Assembly: GCF_004087915.1 (NCBI RefSeq)
Contig: NZ_CP035108.1
Span: 1,116,001 to 1,180,000 of the forward strand
Reading direction: 5' to 3'
DNA from: Geovibrio thiophilus
GTDB lineage: Bacteria; Chrysiogenota; Deferribacteres; Deferribacterales; Geovibrionaceae
DNA: 64,000 bases
Position 1 is the first letter of the stretch, and every line of letters starts with the position of its first letter. Positions 13,498-58,767 of the stretch are shown here, piece by piece. The translations under genes and the position numbers were made by a program. Below the pieces are notes generated by a model, which saw only the letters and a list, made by a program, of their open reading frames with translations, ran no database searches and had not been told where the DNA came from.

Positions 13498-14033
13498 TAC
13501 AGCATGGCTTTTTTTAACGTATCGGTTATTCTCTTATCTATCAGCCTGTCAACAATTGCGAATGCGAAGTCCGGCGCAGTGGCGGGACCTCTGCTGGTTA
13601 TGATATTGCCGTCTTCCACAACTTTTTTCTCAATGTAGCTTTCACCCAATACTTCTGCGTATGAAGGGAAGCAGGTTGCTTTTTTCCCTTTCAGAAATCC
13701 CTTTTCCGCCAGAATGTAAGGCGCCGCGCATATGGCGCAGATGAGCTTCCCTTTTTCACTGAAGCTGTACAGCAGATCGATCACACGGCTGTCGGCATTG
13801 AGGTTATCCGCTCCGGGCTGACCGCCGGGGAGGACTATTGCGTCGAAGTCATCAGCGTTTACGCTGTCAATGAGCCCGTCGGGCAGAACCCTGACTCCTC
13901 TGCTGGACGAAACAGCGCCTTCCTTAAGCCCTGCTATGAAAACATCCGCCTTCGCTCTGCGGAGAATATCCACTGTTCCGAGCGCCTCTATCTCTTCAAA
14001 TCCGTCTGCTAGTATCAATGCGATTTTTGCCAT
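13482..14033 (-). CDS. DJ-1/PfpI family protein (YajL/ThiJ-like)
   Basis: The 183-residue protein has the family's glutamate in GFEEIEALG at residue 15, the nucleophilic elbow cysteine in ICAICAAP near 101 and the SRGPATAPDFA motif. These match YajL/DJ-1 proteins, linked to handling of methylglyoxal-type damage or oxidative stress; the exact reaction is debated. A strong AAGGAGGAACAA ribosome site precedes the ATG. The first 45 bases of the gene, with its ribosome site, are duplicated 160 bases upstream on the far side of a repeat element. Confidence 0.9.
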   Translation of the reverse strand: MAKIALILADGFEEIEALGTVDILRRAKADVFIAGLKEGAVSSSRGVRVLPDGLIDSVNADDFDAIVLPGGQPGADNLNADSRVIDLLYSFSEKGKLICAICAAPYILAEKGFLKGKKATCFPSYAEVLGESYIEKKVVEDGNIITSRGPATAPDFAFAIVDRLIDKRITDTLKKAMLYYCGC

Positions 14034-14069
14034 TTGTTCCTCCTTTGGTCTATCACGGTAAAAACTACG
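13987..14069. repeat. Direct repeat, gene-proximal copy
   Basis: These 83 bases cover the 5' end and ribosome site of the DJ-1/PfpI gene plus one arm of a hairpin. They recur at 14147-14229 with two mismatches (14007/14167 and 14016/14176), an offset of exactly 160. Confidence 0.95.
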
Positions 14070-14145
14070 TCCTGTGTTTTTACCGTGTACGCTCGCGCCG
14101 TGTTAAACACGGCTTCGCTGCGCACGGCGTCGGCACATCCTGTAC
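14054..14145 (-). repeat. Three-hairpin repeat element upstream of the DJ-1/PfpI gene
   Basis: Read on the minus strand: a degraded H1 (GTACAGGATGTGCC at 14145-14132), box 1 at 14128-14113, H2 GCCGTGTTTAACACGGC at 14113-14097, box 2 at about 14097-14086 (GCGAGCGTACAC, an imperfect match to the consensus), and H3 at 14087-14054. H3 has a 12-bp stem (CACGGTAAAAAC with GTTTTTACCGTG), inner AC/GT, loop AGGAC and one bulged A. The gene-side arm of H3 belongs to the duplicated host sequence. Confidence 0.88.
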
Positions 14146-14193
14146 ATCTATCTCTTCAAATCCGTCAGCTAGTATTAATGCGATTTTTGCCAT
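14080..14193 (-). pseudogene. Truncated duplicate of the DJ-1/PfpI 5' end fused to the repeat
   Basis: A duplicated ribosome site and ATG open a 37-codon frame. Its first 15 residues copy the DJ-1/PfpI start (MAKIALILADGFEEI) and the rest is read through the repeat element until TAA in H3. It has an intact translation start just ahead of the real gene and is either inert debris or a leader ORF. Confidence 0.75.
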
Positions 14194-18580: not shown

Positions 18581-19115
18581 GTTATTAATCGCATTTGTTT
18601 TTATAGTCTTTTTCGTATATTCCAACCTTTCCGCGCGCCTGCATACGCATACTGCGGAGGTTGCGCTTCTGGACGGAAAAAGACTTATCGTGCCGCTTAT
18701 TGATGATATAACCTCGGCGGAACGCTCCATAGACATGACAATATACATGTTCAAGGCGGACAGGGAGAAGCCCGCCGATACGGAGCTTCTGCTCCTTGCC
18801 CTTGGAAACGCCGCCAAGAGGGGGGTTGAGGTGAGAGTGGTTTTTGATATTGAAGAGGACGAGAAGTCCTTCCTTAACAAGGCAAACAGGGAAACAGGCG
18901 CAGCCCTCGCCAAGGCGGGGGCGATTGTGCTTTACGACAGCCCGAAGAAGCGTCTGCACACAAAAATGACCGTTATTGACGGACGGATAGTTTATTCCGG
19001 CAGTCATAATTATACTTACAGCGCGTTCAATTATAACGATGAAGTGACCATGCGCCTTGAGTCTGAATCTCTGGCGGCGGAAGCCACTGAATATGTTGAG
19101 AGGTTTTTCAGGTGA
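18543..19115 (+). CDS. Membrane-anchored phospholipase D-like protein
   Basis: The 190-residue protein has an N-terminal membrane anchor (about 12-30) and a single PLD domain with the HKD-type motif HTKMTVID followed by YSGSHNYT. Single-motif PLD proteins of this size are usually dimeric nucleases or phosphodiesterases outside the cytoplasmic membrane. The ATG at 18543 is the last start that retains the full anchor. It overlaps engB by 38 bases, an unusually long overlap, so the exact start is uncertain. Confidence 0.82.
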   Translation: MSGKRSARSRVFKLLIAFVFIVFFVYSNLSARLHTHTAEVALLDGKRLIVPLIDDITSAERSIDMTIYMFKADREKPADTELLLLALGNAAKRGVEVRVVFDIEEDEKSFLNKANRETGAALAKAGAIVLYDSPKKRLHTKMTVIDGRIVYSGSHNYTYSAFNYNDEVTMRLESESLAAEATEYVERFFR

Positions 19116-19804
19116 TAACCGGAACAGTGGTAAACAGTGCGGCGATTATCGCCGGAAGTGTGGCTGGGCTTGCCTTCGGCAAAAGGCTCGGCGAATCGGT
19201 TAAGGACTCGGTCGTAAAGGTTGTGGGGCTTGCCGTGGCAGTGCTCGGCATAAAGATGGCGTTTGAGGATCACGATTTTTTCCCCGTGATAGTCTCTCTT
19301 GTTATCGGAACGGTGATAGGGGAGCTTCTCAATATTGAAGGCAGGCTTGAGCAGCTTGGGGAAACACTGAGAAAAGCGATCAAGAGCAAGTCGGAGAACT
19401 TTGTGAACGGCTTTGTGACCGCATCAGTGATCTACTGTGTGGGCTCCTTCGCCATACTCGGCAGCATAAAGGACGGGCTTATGAACGATCCGAGCCTTTT
19501 GTATGTAAAAAGCCTTCTGGACGGCATAATATCGGTTATCCTCGCCTCCACGCTGGGGATAGGCGTAATTTTTTCCGCTGCCAGCGTTTTTATTTATCAG
19601 GGAATATTAAGCCTTCTGGCGTTTAATTTAAGATTTCTTCTCAGTGAACCCATGTACGTGAGCGCGATCTCCGTCACAGGCGGGGTCATTATTCTCAGCA
19701 TAGGCATAGGGCTTTCCGGCATTGCCCGTTTCCGTACGGCGAATATGCTTCCTGCTATTTTTATCACTCCAGTTTACGATTATCTGACTTTGATTCTGTC
19801 ATAG
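19112..19804 (+). CDS. DUF554 family membrane protein
   Basis: The 230-residue protein has about six hydrophobic helices and the DUF554 features NSAAIIAGSVAGLAFGKRL at the start and CVGSFAILGSIKDGL near residue 110. The function is unknown; a transport role is sometimes assumed. The GTG start overlaps the PLD gene stop by four bases. It is the last gene of the run that begins at trpB2; a tandem repeat array follows. Confidence 0.87.
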   Translation: MITGTVVNSAAIIAGSVAGLAFGKRLGESVKDSVVKVVGLAVAVLGIKMAFEDHDFFPVIVSLVIGTVIGELLNIEGRLEQLGETLRKAIKSKSENFVNGFVTASVIYCVGSFAILGSIKDGLMNDPSLLYVKSLLDGIISVILASTLGIGVIFSAASVFIYQGILSLLAFNLRFLLSEPMYVSAISVTGGVIILSIGIGLSGIARFRTANMLPAIFITPVYDYLTLILS

Positions 19805-19870
19805 GTGTGATAAAATTAGGTATGAGCGGCAGTTATTTCTGCTGTGTCAATGCGTCACTCTCTCTAATTC

Positions 19871-20173
19871 GCCGTGCGCAGCGAAGGCAGGTTCATCCTG
19901 CCGCGAGCGTGTATAAAAATCCGACAGGATGTGCGGATTTTATTGTCAGGTCAAGGAGGCACAGGAAGTGCCGTCGCCGTGCGCAGCGAAGGCAGGTTCA
20001 TCCTGCCGCGAGCGTGTATAAAAATCCGACAGGATGTGCGGATTTTTATTGTCAGGTCAAGGAGGCACAGGAAGTGCCGTCGCCGTGCGCAGCGAAGGCA
20101 GGTTCATCCTGCCGCGAGCGTGTATAAAAATCCGACAGGATGTGCGGATTTTTATTGTCAGGTCAAGGAGGCA
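19871..20173 (+). repeat. Three tandem copies of the hairpin repeat element
   Basis: Box 1 starts at 19871, 19976 and 20082, giving units of 105 and 106 bases. Each unit reads box 1, H2 (GCAGG-TTCAT-CCTGC), box 2, and H3 (AAAAATCCG-AC-AGGAT-GT-G-CGGATTTTT). The first H3 has one T fewer. Next comes host-derived sequence ending AAGGAGGC and then H1 (GGCAC-AGGAA-GTGCC) of the next unit. The last unit runs straight into the cytochrome gene and supplies its ribosome site. Frames through the array are not real genes. Confidence 0.93.
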
Positions 20174-20178
20174 ATAAC

Positions 20179-20448
20179 ATGAAATCCTTAAAATCTTTTA
20201 TTATCTTTCTTATAGCTGTAGTTTTTGTCTGTATACTGATAACAATGAATGCGAAAGCGGCAGACGGTGAAAAGGTTTTCACCGCAAAATGCGTCAGCTG
20301 CCACAGCCTTGAGCTTGCTCTGAAAAAACAGTACGATCAAAAGAAGTGGGCTTCCACCATAGACAGAATGAAAGGCTTCGGACTCAAGATTACTGGAAAC
20401 GAAGCCTCAGCCGTGGCGGAATTTCTCGCCTCAAAGGAGAAAAAATAG
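20179..20448 (+). CDS. Small monoheme c-type cytochrome
   Basis: The 89-residue precursor has a signal peptide (residues 1-25, ending MNAKA before ADGEKVF), one heme site CVSCH near residue 37 and a candidate axial methionine in DRMKGFG. It should be periplasmic and carry electrons; the partner is unknown. The ATG at 20179 follows CAAGGAGGCAATAAC, a ribosome site that is part of the sequence duplicated in the upstream tandem array. It ends immediately before the flavin-reductase ATG. Confidence 0.88.
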   Translation: MKSLKSFIIFLIAVVFVCILITMNAKAADGEKVFTAKCVSCHSLELALKKQYDQKKWASTIDRMKGFGLKITGNEASAVAEFLASKEKK

Positions 20449-23011: not shown

Positions 23012-24160
23012 GTGCGTTTCTATCATACGCTGATCATGGTTTACGCTACGGTCATGACATTCTCCGCCCTTTACGCTCCCCAGCCGCTCCAGCCCATATT
23101 AATGAGCGAATTCGGCGTAAGCAAGGAGCAGGCGGCGCTGCTCACCACTGTGACGATGATTCCTCTGGGTATAGCACCAATAGTTTACGGCTACATGCTG
23201 GAATCCTTCTCATCCAAAAAACTTTTTCTCATCGGAATAGGTTCTCTTGCTCTTCTTCAGCTTGCGTTCTTTTTCACAGATAATTTTAACCTGCTTATAG
23301 TTATACGCTTCTTTGTGGGGATGGCTATTCCTGCGGTGCTGACATCCGTAATGACTTATATCTCCACCGTAACCAAACGGGAAACCGTACAGCGGCAGAT
23401 GGCTTATTATATATCCTCAACTATTCTGGGCGGCTTTGCCGGAAGGTTTTTTTCGGGGCTCATCGCCTCATATTTCGGATGGCGGTGGACATTTCTCATA
23501 CTTGCATTCAGCCTTTCGTTTGCGTTTCTGCTGATCCGCAGCCTGCACGAGGCGGAGATTCAGGTATCGAAATTCAGTGTGCGCTCTGTTCTGGATGTGC
23601 TTAAGAAGAGGCAGTTCGCTACAATATATCTGCTTATTTTCGCCACGTTTTTCACATTCGCAGCGATGCTTAACTTCATTCCGTTCAGGGTGAGGGAGAT
23701 AAGCGCGGGGTCTTCATCATTCACAATAGGCGTTATGTACATGGGTTATATCATGGGCATAGTTATGTCGCTGAATGCGCTGCGGATTATAAAGATTTTC
23801 GGCGGCGAGATGAACACTGTCTTCTCTGCTTTGGTATTTTACGCTTTCACGCTGTTCCTGTTCACTTATCCGAGCCTGTATGTGATGTTCTTCGGTATGT
23901 TCCTTTTCTGCTGCGGCATGTTTCTGGCGCACTCGGTGGCGTCCGGCTATGTTAATAAAATTGCCGATGATAAAAAGGGGATAACCAACGGACTGTATGT
24001 ATCCTTCTACTATGCGGGCGGAACATTCGGCTCCTTTGTGCCGGGGTTTGTGTACAGCGGCTTCGGGTGGAACTTCTTTCTGCTGTTCATAGGCTCTGTT
24101 CTGTCGGTTTCGGTGGCTGCCGCATGGTTTATTCAGGACAGACGCAGAATTTATTCTTGA
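23012..24160 (+). CDS. Major facilitator superfamily transporter
   Basis: The 382-residue protein has about twelve hydrophobic helices and the start YAPQPLQPILMSEFGVSKEQAALL, typical of YnfM/AraJ-like drug:H+ antiporters. The start codon is GTG at 23012. The substrate cannot be told. The stop codon TGA lies inside the -35 box of the trp leader promoter, so the trp operon begins directly at its end. Confidence 0.88.
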   Translation: MRFYHTLIMVYATVMTFSALYAPQPLQPILMSEFGVSKEQAALLTTVTMIPLGIAPIVYGYMLESFSSKKLFLIGIGSLALLQLAFFFTDNFNLLIVIRFFVGMAIPAVLTSVMTYISTVTKRETVQRQMAYYISSTILGGFAGRFFSGLIASYFGWRWTFLILAFSLSFAFLLIRSLHEAEIQVSKFSVRSVLDVLKKRQFATIYLLIFATFFTFAAMLNFIPFRVREISAGSSSFTIGVMYMGYIMGIVMSLNALRIIKIFGGEMNTVFSALVFYAFTLFLFTYPSLYVMFFGMFLFCCGMFLAHSVASGYVNKIADDKKGITNGLYVSFYYAGGTFGSFVPGFVYSGFGWNFFLLFIGSVLSVSVAAAWFIQDRRRIYS

Positions 24161-24184
24161 CTTCTCTTTTAGGATGTTTATAAT
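24157..24184 (+). promoter_or_regulatory. trp operon promoter
   Basis: TTGACT (24157-24162) and TATAAT (24179-24184) are 16 bases apart, a near-consensus sigma70-type promoter overlapping the MFS stop codon. The predicted start site falls at about 24190-24193, at the first base of the trpL ATG. Confidence 0.85.
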
Positions 24185-24192
24185 CACAGACT

Positions 24193-24258
24193 ATGGAAAT
24201 GACAGTTAAAGGTTTCAATTTTACAACTGGTTTTTGGTGGTGGACGCTTTCAGAATAG
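24193..24258 (+). CDS. trpL: Trp leader peptide
   Basis: A 21-codon frame encodes a peptide ending GFWWWTLSE, with three consecutive TGG codons at 24235-24243. It sits just after the promoter and before an attenuator, the classical arrangement for ribosome-mediated attenuation: at low charged tRNA-Trp the ribosome stalls on the Trp codons. An alternative ATG lies at 24199. No ribosome site precedes either start and the promoter is so close that translation is probably leaderless, as reported for trpL of Sinorhizobium. Confidence 0.9.
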   Translation: MEMTVKGFNFTTGFWWWTLSE

Positions 24259-24321
24259 GAGGCTGTCCGCTGATACTGTGATAATACAGAGCCGTGCGGC
24301 ACATGCCGTGCGGCTCTTTTT
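24240..24321 (+). promoter_or_regulatory. Trp attenuator (competing RNA stems)
   Basis: Strand 1 (GTGGAC, 24240-24245, inside the Trp codons) pairs with strand 2 (GTCCGC, 24265-24270). Strand 2 (GGCTGTCCGC, 24261-24270) can instead pair with strand 3 (24296-24307) with two single-base bulges, the antiterminator. Strand 3 otherwise joins the terminator stem 24288-24301/24304-24317 (AGAGCCG with CGGCTCT at its base), followed by TTTTT. The alternatives exclude each other. Confidence 0.87.
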
Positions 24322-24336
24322 GGTTTAACCGAATTT

Positions 24337-24379
24337 GAGAGGGAGTCGTTGTGAAAACAGCGACTCCCTCTCTTTTTTT
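24337..24379 (+). terminator. Second strong intrinsic terminator before trpE
   Basis: Perfect 12-bp arms GAGAGGGAGTCG (24337-24348) and CGACTCCCTCTC (24361-24372) are followed by seven T. It lies downstream of the attenuator and upstream of trpE, so it should stop most transcripts that escape attenuation unless it is bypassed. Confidence 0.85.
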
Positions 24380-24382
24380 ATA

Positions 24383-24476
24383 GTCCTGACTGTCACATCC
24401 TGTGCAGTCAGGACACACGCTCGCGCCGCATGAATGCGTCTTCGCTTCGCACGGCGCGGCTCCATCCTTGGAGCCG
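24383..24476 (-). repeat. Hairpin repeat element between trp leader and trpE, copy 1
   Basis: In minus orientation: H1 (GGCTCC-AAGGAT-GGAGCC) at 24476-24457, box 1 at 24455-24440, H2 (CGCAT-TC-ATGCG) at 24438-24427, box 2, and H3 at 24414-24383. H3 has a GTCCTGACTG stem, inner CAC/GTG, loop AGGAT and one bulged A. The sequence TTTATAGTCCTGACTG flanks it on both sides (24377 and 24477). Confidence 0.88.
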
Positions 24477-24482
24477 TTTATA

Positions 24483-24540
24483 GTCCTGACTGCCGACAAT
24501 CCTGTGCAGTCAGGACACACGCTCGCGCCGCATGAATGCG
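24483..24540 (-). repeat. Hairpin repeat element, truncated copy 2
   Basis: A second minus-orientation copy has the same H3 stem with a degraded loop, box 2 and H2, but its own box 1 is missing. It is fused head-to-head at H2 to the forward copy that starts at 24540. Confidence 0.82.
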
Positions 24541-24613
24541 CCGTGCGAAGCGAAGGCAGGGTTACCCCGTCGTGAGCGTCTTTTCAAAAACACAGGATGT
24601 AGTTTTTTGAAAA
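24540..24613 (+). repeat. Hairpin repeat element, forward copy 3
   Basis: Box 1 at 24540-24555, a degraded H2, box 2 variant GTGAGCGTC, and H3 at 24581-24613: TTTTCAAAAAC, inner AC/GT, loop AGGAT, bulged A, then GTTTTTTGAAAA. From 24614 to trpE only AT-rich sequence and the ribosome site are seen. Confidence 0.85.
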
Positions 24614-24700
24614 TGCTCAAACGGATGAGAACCTACAACGGTTTTTCGAAATAACTGAAGAATGAATAAATAAAAATTAATTAAGATAGGAGAGAATAGC

Positions 24701-35019: not shown

Positions 35020-35087
35020 ACCGGAAGTCACTCTGAGCGTCGGCGAAGAATCAAATCATTGTGATCATTCTAAGAATTGGGGCATAA

Positions 35088-35178
35088 CAGTTCCTAGGAT
35101 GGAACTGCGCCGTGCGAAGCGAAGTCATGTTTATCACGGCGTGAGCGTGTATGTCAAATTCCCATGGAAGGGAATTTG
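35088..35178 (+). repeat. Hairpin repeat element after uvrC
   Basis: H1 (CAGTTCC-TAGGAT-GGAACTG) at 35088-35107, box 1 at 35109-35124, a weak H2 (one mismatch and one wobble), box 2 GTGAGCGTGTAT, and H3 (AAATTCCC-ATGGAA-GGGAATTT) at 35156-35177. The stems share no sequence with other copies. Bases 35020-35087 hold only fragments of dispersed repeats. Confidence 0.88.
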
Positions 35179-35192
35179 GCATTAATAGTAAA

Positions 35193-39754: not shown

Positions 39755-39806
39755 GCCGCACATTTCCATGGATGGTAAATTTTGGATTATTAAGAAAAGA
39801 CAATGC

Positions 39807-39878
39807 GCCGTGCGTAGCGAAGGCGGGTTCATCCCGCCGCGAGCGTGTACATAAATCCGGCAGGACGCGCGGATTTAT
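39807..39878 (+). repeat. Hairpin repeat element after lolA
   Basis: Box 1 at 39807-39822 (N is T), H2 (GGCGGG-TTCAT-CCCGCC), box 2 GCGAGCGTGTAC, and H3 at 39851-39878: ATAAATCCG, inner GC/GC, loop AGGAC, bulged G, CGGATTTAT. The inner pair GC/GC replaces AC/GT of other copies while keeping the pairing. No clear H1. Confidence 0.88.
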
Positions 39879-39910
39879 GTTATAAAGTCAGTTCTGAAAA
39901 ATCCTCTCCG

Positions 39911-46523: not shown

Positions 46524-46546
46524 GCGGATTAAGGTTATGAATACAG
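46524..46546. repeat. Direct repeat around the xerC start, upstream copy
   Basis: These 23 bases, ending TTATGAATACAG, duplicate 46627-46649 with one mismatch. They include the xerC start codon and one arm of H3. Confidence 0.9.
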
Positions 46547-46635
46547 TCCCACTGACGGGACTGCGCCGTGCGCAGCGAAGCCGTGTTTTTCACGGCGCGA
46601 GCGTGTATCTTAATCCGACAGGATGTGCGGATTAA
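46537..46635 (+). other. Decoy reading frame from a duplicated xerC start codon
   Basis: The duplicated ATG opens a 32-codon frame, MNTVPLTGLRRAQ and onward through the repeat element, that ends at TAA four bases before the true xerC ATG. It could act as an upstream ORF coupled to xerC or be a by-product of the duplication. Confidence 0.5.
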
Positions 46636-46636
46636 G
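46544..46636 (+). repeat. Hairpin repeat element at the xerC start
   Basis: H1 (CAGTCCC-ACTGAC-GGGACTG) at 46544-46563, box 1 at 46565-46580, H2 (GCCGTG-TTTTT-CACGGC) at 46580-46596, box 2 at 46597-46608, and H3 at 46609-46636: CTTAATCCG, AC, AGGAT, GT, bulged G, CGGATTAAG. H3 ends four bases before the xerC ATG, so its gene-side arm can sequester the translation start. Confidence 0.9.
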
Positions 46637-46649
46637 ATTATGAATACAG
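46627..46649. repeat. Direct repeat around the xerC start, gene copy
   Basis: This is the gene-side copy of the 23-base duplication, covering the H3 arm, the true start codon and three codons of xerC. Confidence 0.9.
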
Positions 46650-51870: not shown

Positions 51871-51900
51871 TGCTAATCCTTATTTGATGATAGTTCGCAG

Positions 51901-51988
51901 GCAGGTACATCCTGTCCTGCTGCTCACACGCTCGCGCCGAACTCGGTTCGGCTTCGCTTCGCACGGCGCAGTCCCATCCATGGGACTG
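51901..51988 (-). repeat. Hairpin repeat element upstream of purD
   Basis: In minus orientation: H1 (CAGTCCC-ATGGAT-GGGACTG) at 51988-51969, box 1 at 51967-51952, H2 (CCGAAC-CGA-GTTCGG) at 51951-51937, box 2, and H3 at 51920-51901 (GCAGG, AC, AGGAT, GT, bulged A, CCTGC). All parts of the family plan are present. Confidence 0.9.
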
Positions 51989-51993
51989 TTTTG

Positions 51994-52028
51994 CGTCATT
52001 GCGAACCCTGAAAGGGTGAAGCAATCTC
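51994..52028. repeat. 35-base dispersed repeat
   Basis: It begins CGTCATTGCGAACCCTGAAA and is an exact reverse complement of 14263-14297. Fragments (AGAGATTGCTTC) also occur near 58410 and 58551. Confidence 0.9.
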
Positions 52029-57253: not shown

Positions 57254-58351
57254 ATGGCACACTTGAAAAGAAAATCTCTCGCCGTTGATTTCCGCATGTG
57301 CAGAGCCTCCGGTATCGGAACATATATCAGAAACATTATTCCCTTTCTTACCGACTCATTCGACATAACCCTCCTCGGCTGTGAGGAGGATATAAAGGCC
57401 TTTCCATGGGCGGATAAGGTTAAGATCATCGAAGCTTCATCCAAAATATATTCCGTGAGTGAACAGATCGAGCTCTTCCGGAAAATTCCGGACTGTGATG
57501 TTTTCTGGTCGCCTCATTATAATGTGCCTGTTCTGCCGATCAGGGCGAAAAAAAGGATAGTTACGGTGCATGATGCGTACCATCTTGCGGCGGAAAGCGG
57601 CATTTTTTCCCCTGTTCAGAGGATGTATGCTAAGTTTGTCATGCGCCGCGCCGTATCTGTGTCTGACGCCGTGCTGACTGTTTCGGAATTTTCAAAAGCT
57701 GAAATACTCAAATACTGCCCTTCTGAACCGGCGAAGATAAAGGTGGTTTTCAACGCTGTGGACGAAAAGCAGTTCAGCGGAGATAAAAACAGCGATGTGA
57801 TAAAAAAATACTCCCTGCCGGAAGACTATATCCTCTTTGTGGGGAACGTGAAGCCGAATAAAAACCTCATTACCCTGTTGAAGGCACTTGAACTCATGAG
57901 CGGAGTGAACCTTGTCATAGTAGGCAGGAAGGACGGATTCATCACCGGCGATTCCGCCGTGGCGGAGATGGTGAACGGATCTGAAAGCCTCAAAAGCAGA
58001 GTGTTTTTTACTGGTTATGCGGATGATAAGGATATTCCCTCAATATACGCTTCTGCATCGGTTTTTGTTTTTCCATCACTTTATGAAGGCTTTGGCATTC
58101 CGCCTCTGGAGGCTCAGGCATGCGGATGTCCGGTTGTGTCTTCTCCTGCGGCAAGCCTGCGGGAGGTATGCGGCGGAAGCGTAATCTATTGTGATCCTAT
58201 GTCGTCTGAGGATATAGCGGAAAAGGTTATGAAAGTGCGTGGTTCTGCGGAACTCCGTGCAGAGTTAATAGAGAAAGGTTATGATAATATCCGCCGTTTC
58301 GGCTGGCAGAAGTCGGCAGAGCAGATAAGGGATATAATAAAGGGGATGTGA
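57254..58351 (+). CDS. GT4-family glycosyltransferase
   Basis: The 365-residue protein has the two-domain GT-B layout of family GT4: FRMCRASGIGTYIRNIIPFL at the start, VTVHDAYHL near residue 107, LFVGNVKPNKNL near 195 and the C-terminal PSLYEGFGIPPLEAQACG donor site. It probably adds sugars to a cell-surface glycan, but the acceptor is unknown. Its TGA stop is inside box 2 (GTGAGCGTGTAT) of a truncated hairpin element, so the element abuts or formed the gene end. Confidence 0.9.
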   Translation: MAHLKRKSLAVDFRMCRASGIGTYIRNIIPFLTDSFDITLLGCEEDIKAFPWADKVKIIEASSKIYSVSEQIELFRKIPDCDVFWSPHYNVPVLPIRAKKRIVTVHDAYHLAAESGIFSPVQRMYAKFVMRRAVSVSDAVLTVSEFSKAEILKYCPSEPAKIKVVFNAVDEKQFSGDKNSDVIKKYSLPEDYILFVGNVKPNKNLITLLKALELMSGVNLVIVGRKDGFITGDSAVAEMVNGSESLKSRVFFTGYADDKDIPSIYASASVFVFPSLYEGFGIPPLEAQACGCPVVSSPAASLREVCGGSVIYCDPMSSEDIAEKVMKVRGSAELRAELIEKGYDNIRRFGWQKSAEQIRDIIKGM

Positions 58352-58680
58352 GCGTGTATAAAAATTTCCCAAGGATGGTGAAATTTTTACTGAAAGTAGA
58401 AGTTAAGAGATTGCTTCATGACGAAGGCGTATGTCCCATGGAGGCACAGGAAGTGCCGACGCCGTGCGAAGCGAAGGTCTGCTTTGCAGACCGCGAGCGT
58501 GTATAAAAATTTCCCAAGGATGGTGAAATTTTTACTGAAAGTAGAAGGTAAGAGATTGCTTCATGACGAAGGCGTATGTCCCATGGAGGCACAGGAAGTG
58601 CCGACGCCGTGCGAAGCGAAGGTCTGCTTTGCAGACCGCGAGCGTGTATAAAAATTTCCCAAGGATGGTGAAATTTTTAC
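58348..58680 (+). repeat. Tandem array of hairpin repeat elements before the DsbA-like gene
   Basis: A 5'-truncated copy begins at box 2 (58348) and is followed by two complete copies with box 1 at 58461 and 58606, a 145-base period. Each has H1 (GGCAC-AGGAA-GTGCC), H2 (GGTCTGC-TTT-GCAGACC) and H3 (AAAAATTTC, CC, AAGGAT, GG, bulged T, GAAATTTTT). Frames across the array are artefacts. A small GTTAGC/GCTAAC hairpin lies at 58729-58745. Confidence 0.93.
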
Positions 58681-58767
58681 TGAAAGTTAGACTTTTTACG
58701 GAACATATGATAGCGTTTGCTGTCTTTAAGTTAGCTTTGCTAACTATTTTAAAAGGAGCTTGTGTTT

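Follow-up and report, generated by a model that had tools for sequence, protein, structure and literature searches.

The question raised by this locus is why the DNA in front of a small cytochrome c gene of Geovibrio thiophilus should be repeated almost three times, with the ribosome-binding site as part of the repeat. The window (the whole stretch of DNA analysed, 64,000 nucleotides) carries at this place a tandem array of 2.9 units of 105/106 bp on the + strand (19869..20173), which Tandem Repeats Finder resolved with a period of 106, 2.9 copies, a 99% match and a score of 603. The array is flanked on its 5' side by a DUF554 gene (19112-19804) and on its 3' side by the cytochrome c gene (20179..20448, + strand), which encodes 89 aa with a PF13442 domain and a signal-peptide-like N-terminus. 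The spacings of the units are 105 and 106, unit 1 being one T short in the 3' arm of its last hairpin. The repeat spacing and the 99% match agree with a preliminary description of near-identical units ending in AAGGAGGC; as described there, the ATG (20179) is reached only by the last AAGGAGGC (20165-20172).

Each element was observed to consist of three hairpins, in the order H1 - H2 - H3. Within each array unit a GC-rich core with H2 is followed by the A/T-rich H3, a short linker and AAGGAGGC. H1 (GGCAC-AGGAA-GTGCC) is complete at the start of units 2 and 3. Unit 1 lacks it and begins with core and H2 (CGCCGTGCGCAGCGAAG - stem GGCAGG/CCTGCC - GCGAGCGTG; 19870..19911), followed by the H3 hairpin (19913..19943), in which the loop ACAGGATGTG is of the CsrB type, CAGGAUG, and the 3' arm is the one short of a T. 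A copy of the Shine-Dalgarno sequence, AAGGAGGC (19953-19960), then runs into H1 of unit 2 (together 19953..19972), of which GGCAC occupies 19958-19962 and GTGCC 19968-19972 around the loop AGGAA. Core/H2 and H3 of this unit follow at 19975..20049 (H3 arms 20018-20028 and 20039-20049, loop ACAGGATGTG). The second Shine-Dalgarno copy is fused to H1 of unit 3 (20059..20078), whose core/H2 and H3 span 20081..20155 (H3 arms 20124-20134 and 20145-20155, loop GGA 20138-20140). The functional Shine-Dalgarno of the cytochrome gene, AAGGAGGC at 20165..20172, lies 28 nt from this H3-loop GGA; all of these array features are on the + strand. The pairing described for the unit ends was borne out, as the 5' arm of H1 in units 2 and 3 overlaps the preceding AAGGAGGC copy. 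The host part had also been said to begin with an arm of H3, and this had to be revised: single copies at other sites also have the 3' arm of H3, together with a conserved tail, and throughout the family its sequence covaries with that of the 5' arm, so that it is element and not host. The true 'host' part of the array unit is the short linker and the Shine-Dalgarno.

A 16-base piece of the array occurs at 31 places in the genome, many of them in arrays with other spacings. We refer to the genome of the window as G000, to two genomes of the same genus as G001 and G002, and to a genome of the sister genus as G003. A strict pattern of the H2 core gave 224 matches in the single-contig window genome (2,997,552 bp) and 61 and 85 matches in the two other genomes of the genus; there were none in 37 other genomes of the order Deferribacterales. 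With a covariance model built from 23 copies, at least 150 copies were found in the window genome, and weaker but significant relatives were seen in every genus of the family Geovibrionaceae; one other family of the order also has them, in some of its genomes. Context statistics cover about 438 kb around the model-detected clusters together with the window. These sampled regions hold 86 element clusters, 58 of which contain at least two elements, so that about two thirds are arrays. In copy number, dispersal and palindromic make-up the repeat resembles REP/BIME elements. The RNA of the cytochrome array folds far better than shuffled sequences (z -4.6); together with the 150 or more family-model copies, this excludes a chance origin of the array. 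At the gathering threshold an Rfam scan of the repeat returned no family, and a relaxed scan returned Leu_leader and AgrB alone, both at chance level. No description of these repeats was found in a literature search, the reach of which excluded most subscription papers.

Among 127 distinct copies, compensatory change was found in 25 of 26 pairs, which none of 500 shuffles matched, and double-change cells numbered 932 as against 257 in the shuffles. The signal was destroyed when partners were slid by one base, and the same covariation was obtained from a seed alignment whose copies had been picked by a piece outside the loops. This indicates that the stems of H1, H2 and H3 vary as units yet remain paired. 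The fixed parts of the element are the GC-rich core around H2 and the loops of H1 and H3. A structured, dispersed and locally amplified repeat family is thereby well shown. Within the genus nothing in the family varies less than the H2 core, CGCCGTGCGNAGCGAAG ... GCGAGCGTG; a GCGNAG / GAGCGT theme is met again in other genera. The tail motif TATTAAG(A/T)CAGA was considered as a signature of array junctions only, and was rejected since it also follows single and final units, in a more degenerate form.

In order to avoid circularity, the loops were examined in a structure-blind set, for which the H2 core served as the sole search criterion and the folding made no demand on the loops. In this set the H1 loop had GGA in 72 of 82 clusters, and the count for the H3 loop was 74 of 85; across all loops the figure was 85%, compared with 21% after shuffling. 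The H1 consensus CANGGANG is kept by 66-72 of 72 clusters at each fixed position, the columns at fixed offset being C70 A69 N G66 G70 A71 N G72 (n=72), with only the two N free. The H3 loop reads C-(A)-A/T-GGA-U-G, in short C(A)AGGAUG, and a minority of H1 loops have TGA instead of GGA. Elements of G003, which were picked by a middle sequence unlike the core described here, have AAGGAU, AUGGAU or ACGGAU in H1, with one exception among the H1 loops read, and CAGGAUG in H3. Across genera the loops outlast the stems and most of the core. The G003 elements also contain an extra variable hairpin between H1 and the core (L138, L140-L151).

These loops closely resemble known CsrA sites: the CsrB repeat is CAGGA(U/A/C)G, the SELEX site is RUACARGGAUGU and the hexaloop bound by RsmE is ANGGAN (PMC7652899). 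CsrA bridges two sites 10-63 nt apart, and its SELEX ligands mostly have 4 pairs or fewer in the stem (PMC7652899); the H3 stems are longer than most of these. In the repeat, GGA is presented in a hairpin loop within an ANGGAN or CAGGAUG context. The genome contains one csrA (PF02599), whose neighbours are fliW and a flagellin-like gene; L4 and R44 are conserved in its product, and the host thus has a CsrA with its RNA-binding residues. Among 40 genomes of the order, the repeats were found in 17 of the 31 that bear csrA and in none of the 9 that lack it (Fisher p 0.005, for related genomes that are not independent), a link which is only suggestive. Taken together, the sequence of the loops, the strand, the spacing and the genes of the host are, in our view, best explained if H1 and H3 are CsrA sites.

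Of the elements in co-directional gaps, 40 have the sense and 11 the antisense orientation (p 6e-5), and in 66 of 83 cases elements are sense to the upstream gene. In the stems, counted by cluster, G-U pairs outnumber A-C 49 to 21, and for H1 in the structure-blind set 13 to 2. Since the decay of a DNA palindrome should yield G-T and A-C equally, this excess indicates folding of the transcribed strand. The sense bias and the G-U excess together point to selection for folding of the transcribed strand rather than of DNA. Plain replication-strand bias was rejected as the cause of the orientation; assuming an origin near base 1, 51 of 76 clusters point the same way as replication, and gene sense gives the stronger split, the two being not fully separable. 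Of 18 leaders, 12 have the GGA of the H3 loop at a distance of 26-28 nt upstream of the Shine-Dalgarno, among them the cytochrome leader (28 nt), while the recA leader is a distant case at 64 nt. The genes downstream of elements, which from recognition of their sequences we take to be recA, lexA, glmS, purD, prfB, pheT and others, are not an obvious CsrA regulon. Tolerance of insertions at some places and not at others could explain part of the sense orientation and of the placement in leaders.

The history of the cytochrome locus was followed in the related genomes. In G003 the DUF554 and cytochrome genes are directly adjacent, with an ordinary Shine-Dalgarno (AGGAGG) and zero array units. 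The orthologous site has two copies in G002, three in G001, the first one truncated, and three in the window genome, the first without H1. The H2 and H3 stems at this locus differ between species and mostly agree among the units of one genome, which implies that units have been kept alike after duplication. The last Shine-Dalgarno, AAGGAGGCA, is identical in all three species of the genus. The earlier proposal that the array delivers the ribosome site could not be upheld, as AAGGAGGCA is kept beside the ATG in the three species and the array-free G003 has AGGAGG. The array adjoins the cytochrome Shine-Dalgarno directly on the 5' side, and the Shine-Dalgarno has been copied into the inner units. 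The simplest history would be one insertion before the Shine-Dalgarno followed by tandem duplication, which fits the near-identity (about 99%) of the units in any one array and the linker common to them. The 4 nt GGCA are common to the Shine-Dalgarno region (AAGGAGGCA) and H1 (GGCAC), and it is probably here that the duplication was joined.

Elsewhere the length of the array unit is locus-specific, about 91-203 bp. In a short class of arrays, H2-H3-tail is repeated and joined to the last bases of H1, and in a long class the repeated unit comprises the element plus the host DNA next to it. Some arrays are bracketed by direct repeats of host sequence (about 10-43 bp), others end at the 3' tail of the element; many end in a truncated unit, left or right. 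These ends are compatible with slippage or unequal recombination after insertion and single out no one mechanism. It had been suggested that the cytochrome array arose by repeated insertion or by expansion at one site. Expansion is supported by the copy numbers, which differ between species, and by the locus-specific units, while repeated insertion is unneeded. The suggestion had been set against a fixed copy number in relatives combined with ends free of host-derived arms; copy number in fact varies between species, and the H3 arm is not derived from the host.

The remaining elements of the window were compared with their orthologous places in G001. The site of a single element at 14051..14155 (- strand) is empty in G001. 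Beyond this element (window 13950-14160) there is a second copy of the ribosome-binding site and initial codons of a PfpI/DJ-1-like gene, so that a copy of the gene start is left upstream. Between the terminator of a trp-type leader and a trpE-like gene lie an element at 24379..24483 (- strand) and a second, inverted one at 24513..24616 (+ strand), both absent in G001. In this region (24150-24700) the leader has a short peptide with consecutive Trp codons and then the terminator, the two inverted elements standing before the trpE-like gene. The single elements at 35081..35186, 39778..39884 and 46537..46642 (all + strand) correspond in G001 to three copies, to a tail-like remnant alone (counted as degraded, not absent) and to about 4 kb of other DNA, respectively; the latter is 15429-19519 of L168 (reverse complement). 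For the single element 5' of a purD-like gene (51891..51995, - strand) G001 has two copies with the same H3 stem and other H1/H2 stems. A second tandem array, 2.3 units of 145 bp (58350..58687, + strand), corresponds in G001 to a different composite of elements, which includes a further subfamily with GGCACATGGATGTGCC and ACTACAGGATGTACGT hairpins. Two sites are thus absent (14.1 kb; 24.4-24.6 kb), one is a remnant (39.8 kb), one is replaced (46.5 kb), and the rest differ in copy number or make-up.

The reading which best accommodates these observations, and to which we assign a probability of about 0.6, is that the repeats are mobile, locally amplified, putative CsrA-docking elements acting at the RNA level. 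An element read in sense with its neighbour gene would fold into H1 - H2 - H3, and the paired GGA-loop hairpins H1 and H3 would bind the two faces of a CsrA dimer. CsrA placed on H3, about 27 nt before the Shine-Dalgarno, could then also contact the GGA within the Shine-Dalgarno and keep the ribosome off, in the manner of E. coli glgC, and array copies would serve as additional docking sites. Elements would spread to new places and then multiply in tandem with adjacent host DNA via slippage or unequal recombination. From the sequence we infer CsrA binding, repression of the cytochrome and slippage as the mechanism of duplication; control of the cytochrome by the array is plausible. The H2 core, most invariant of all, is not explained by CsrA binding and points to another partner or to a mobility mechanism. 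More tentatively, the 200-plus elements, with their roughly 400 or more GGA hairpins, may stand in for a CsrB-type RNA by titrating CsrA and may also set the translation of their neighbours, array length acting as the dial.

It would also be conceivable, though we think it unlikely, that the hairpins serve DNA, as a palindromic mobile repeat of the REP/BIME type whose loops and core are signals for a recombinase and whose likeness to CsrA sites is chance or secondary. The high copy number, variable stems, strand-specific loops, invariant H2 core and local amplification would all suit such a repeat, and G-U pairs are just a small share of all stem pairs. In the three genomes of the genus, however, a domain of the REP-associated Y1 transposases is absent, the loop sequence that is conserved, ANGGAN / CAGGAUG, is that of CsrA and is kept across genera where most of the core is not, and the sense bias and the excess of G-U over A-C favour RNA. 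Equally unlikely in our estimate is a neutral repeat with tandem slippage and no host function, whatever it binds. Differences in presence and copy number between species are what such a repeat would show, but compensated stems and fixed loops in hundreds of copies and several genera mean constraint on the element itself, which need not imply a benefit to the host.

Independent, repeated insertion of the core at one host site, as first suggested for this array, now appears improbable. Units within one array are about 99% identical, linker included, many arrays have a truncated terminal unit, and the H2/H3 stems of the units at the cytochrome locus change together in three species. In its favour, host direct repeats of 10-43 bp flank some arrays, and hot sites such as window 58.3 kb carry different elements in two species. 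Slightly less probable still is a role as transcription terminators or processing sites between operon genes, to which the enrichment of elements downstream of stop codons and between convergent genes (26, compared with 6 between divergent ones) might lend itself. Many copies lie directly 5' of a Shine-Dalgarno, e.g. those of prfB- and purD-like genes, and terminators do not require a loop sequence, yet the loops are conserved.

BOX elements and MIRU arrays are modular dispersed intergenic repeats whose tandem copy number is locally variable. Our repeats share the modular, dispersed nature and variable tandem copies, and differ in having locus-specific host DNA in the unit and paired GGA loops. 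With REP/BIME and their RAYTs they have in common more than 100 dispersed palindromic copies per genome and composite arrays (PMC2817692); uniform orientation within arrays and CsrA-type loops set them apart, and identity with REP/RAYT was rejected on the count of Y1 (PF01797) transposases, which is 0 in G000-G002. The several GGA-loop hairpins (CAGGAUG / ANGGA) recall CsrB/CsrC and RsmX/Y/Z of Gammaproteobacteria, where they bind CsrA/RsmA (PMC7652899). Those are dedicated RNA genes, whereas here predicted sites are found in hundreds of dispersed repeats, in gene leaders and 3' regions; RNAs dedicated to sequestering CsrA have been described chiefly in Gammaproteobacteria (PMC4333381). Two GGA-loop hairpins also characterise TwoAYGGAY (RF01731), proposed to bind CsrA outside Gammaproteobacteria (PMC4333381), but the present repeat has three hairpins, a different core and forms a family of repeats, and the RF01731 covariance model gave no match to it at gathering or at E up to 10. 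The E. coli glgC leader (PMC7652899) likewise has a GGA-loop hairpin upstream of a GGA-containing Shine-Dalgarno, within bridging distance; here the hairpin is delivered by a repeat and repression is predicted. The intergenic TAACTGA repeats of Beggiatoaceae are similarly abundant just before start codons, and a post-transcriptional role was proposed for them, but the heptamer lacks GGA and CsrA was deemed unlikely by its author (PMC4679880). Features of a MITE were not seen: each end is its own hairpin with no common terminal inverted repeat, and there is no fixed-length target duplication, flanking direct repeats, where present, being about 10 to 43 bp.

Reading of the repeats as CsrA-docking elements bears on how bacterial regulons change. 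A direct test is within reach, since three species of one genus carry hundreds of natural insertions that differ in copy number and have diverged in their stems, with loops that are nearly identical. CsrA acts as a global regulator, and little is understood of how its regulon gains or loses genes. If the reading is true, a repeat with ready-made paired CsrA hairpins landing before a Shine-Dalgarno would be a simple route of regulon rewiring, and tandem copies would vary the strength of CsrA control. A seemingly selfish repeat may in this way have distributed hundreds of control sites over the genome and raised their number locally.
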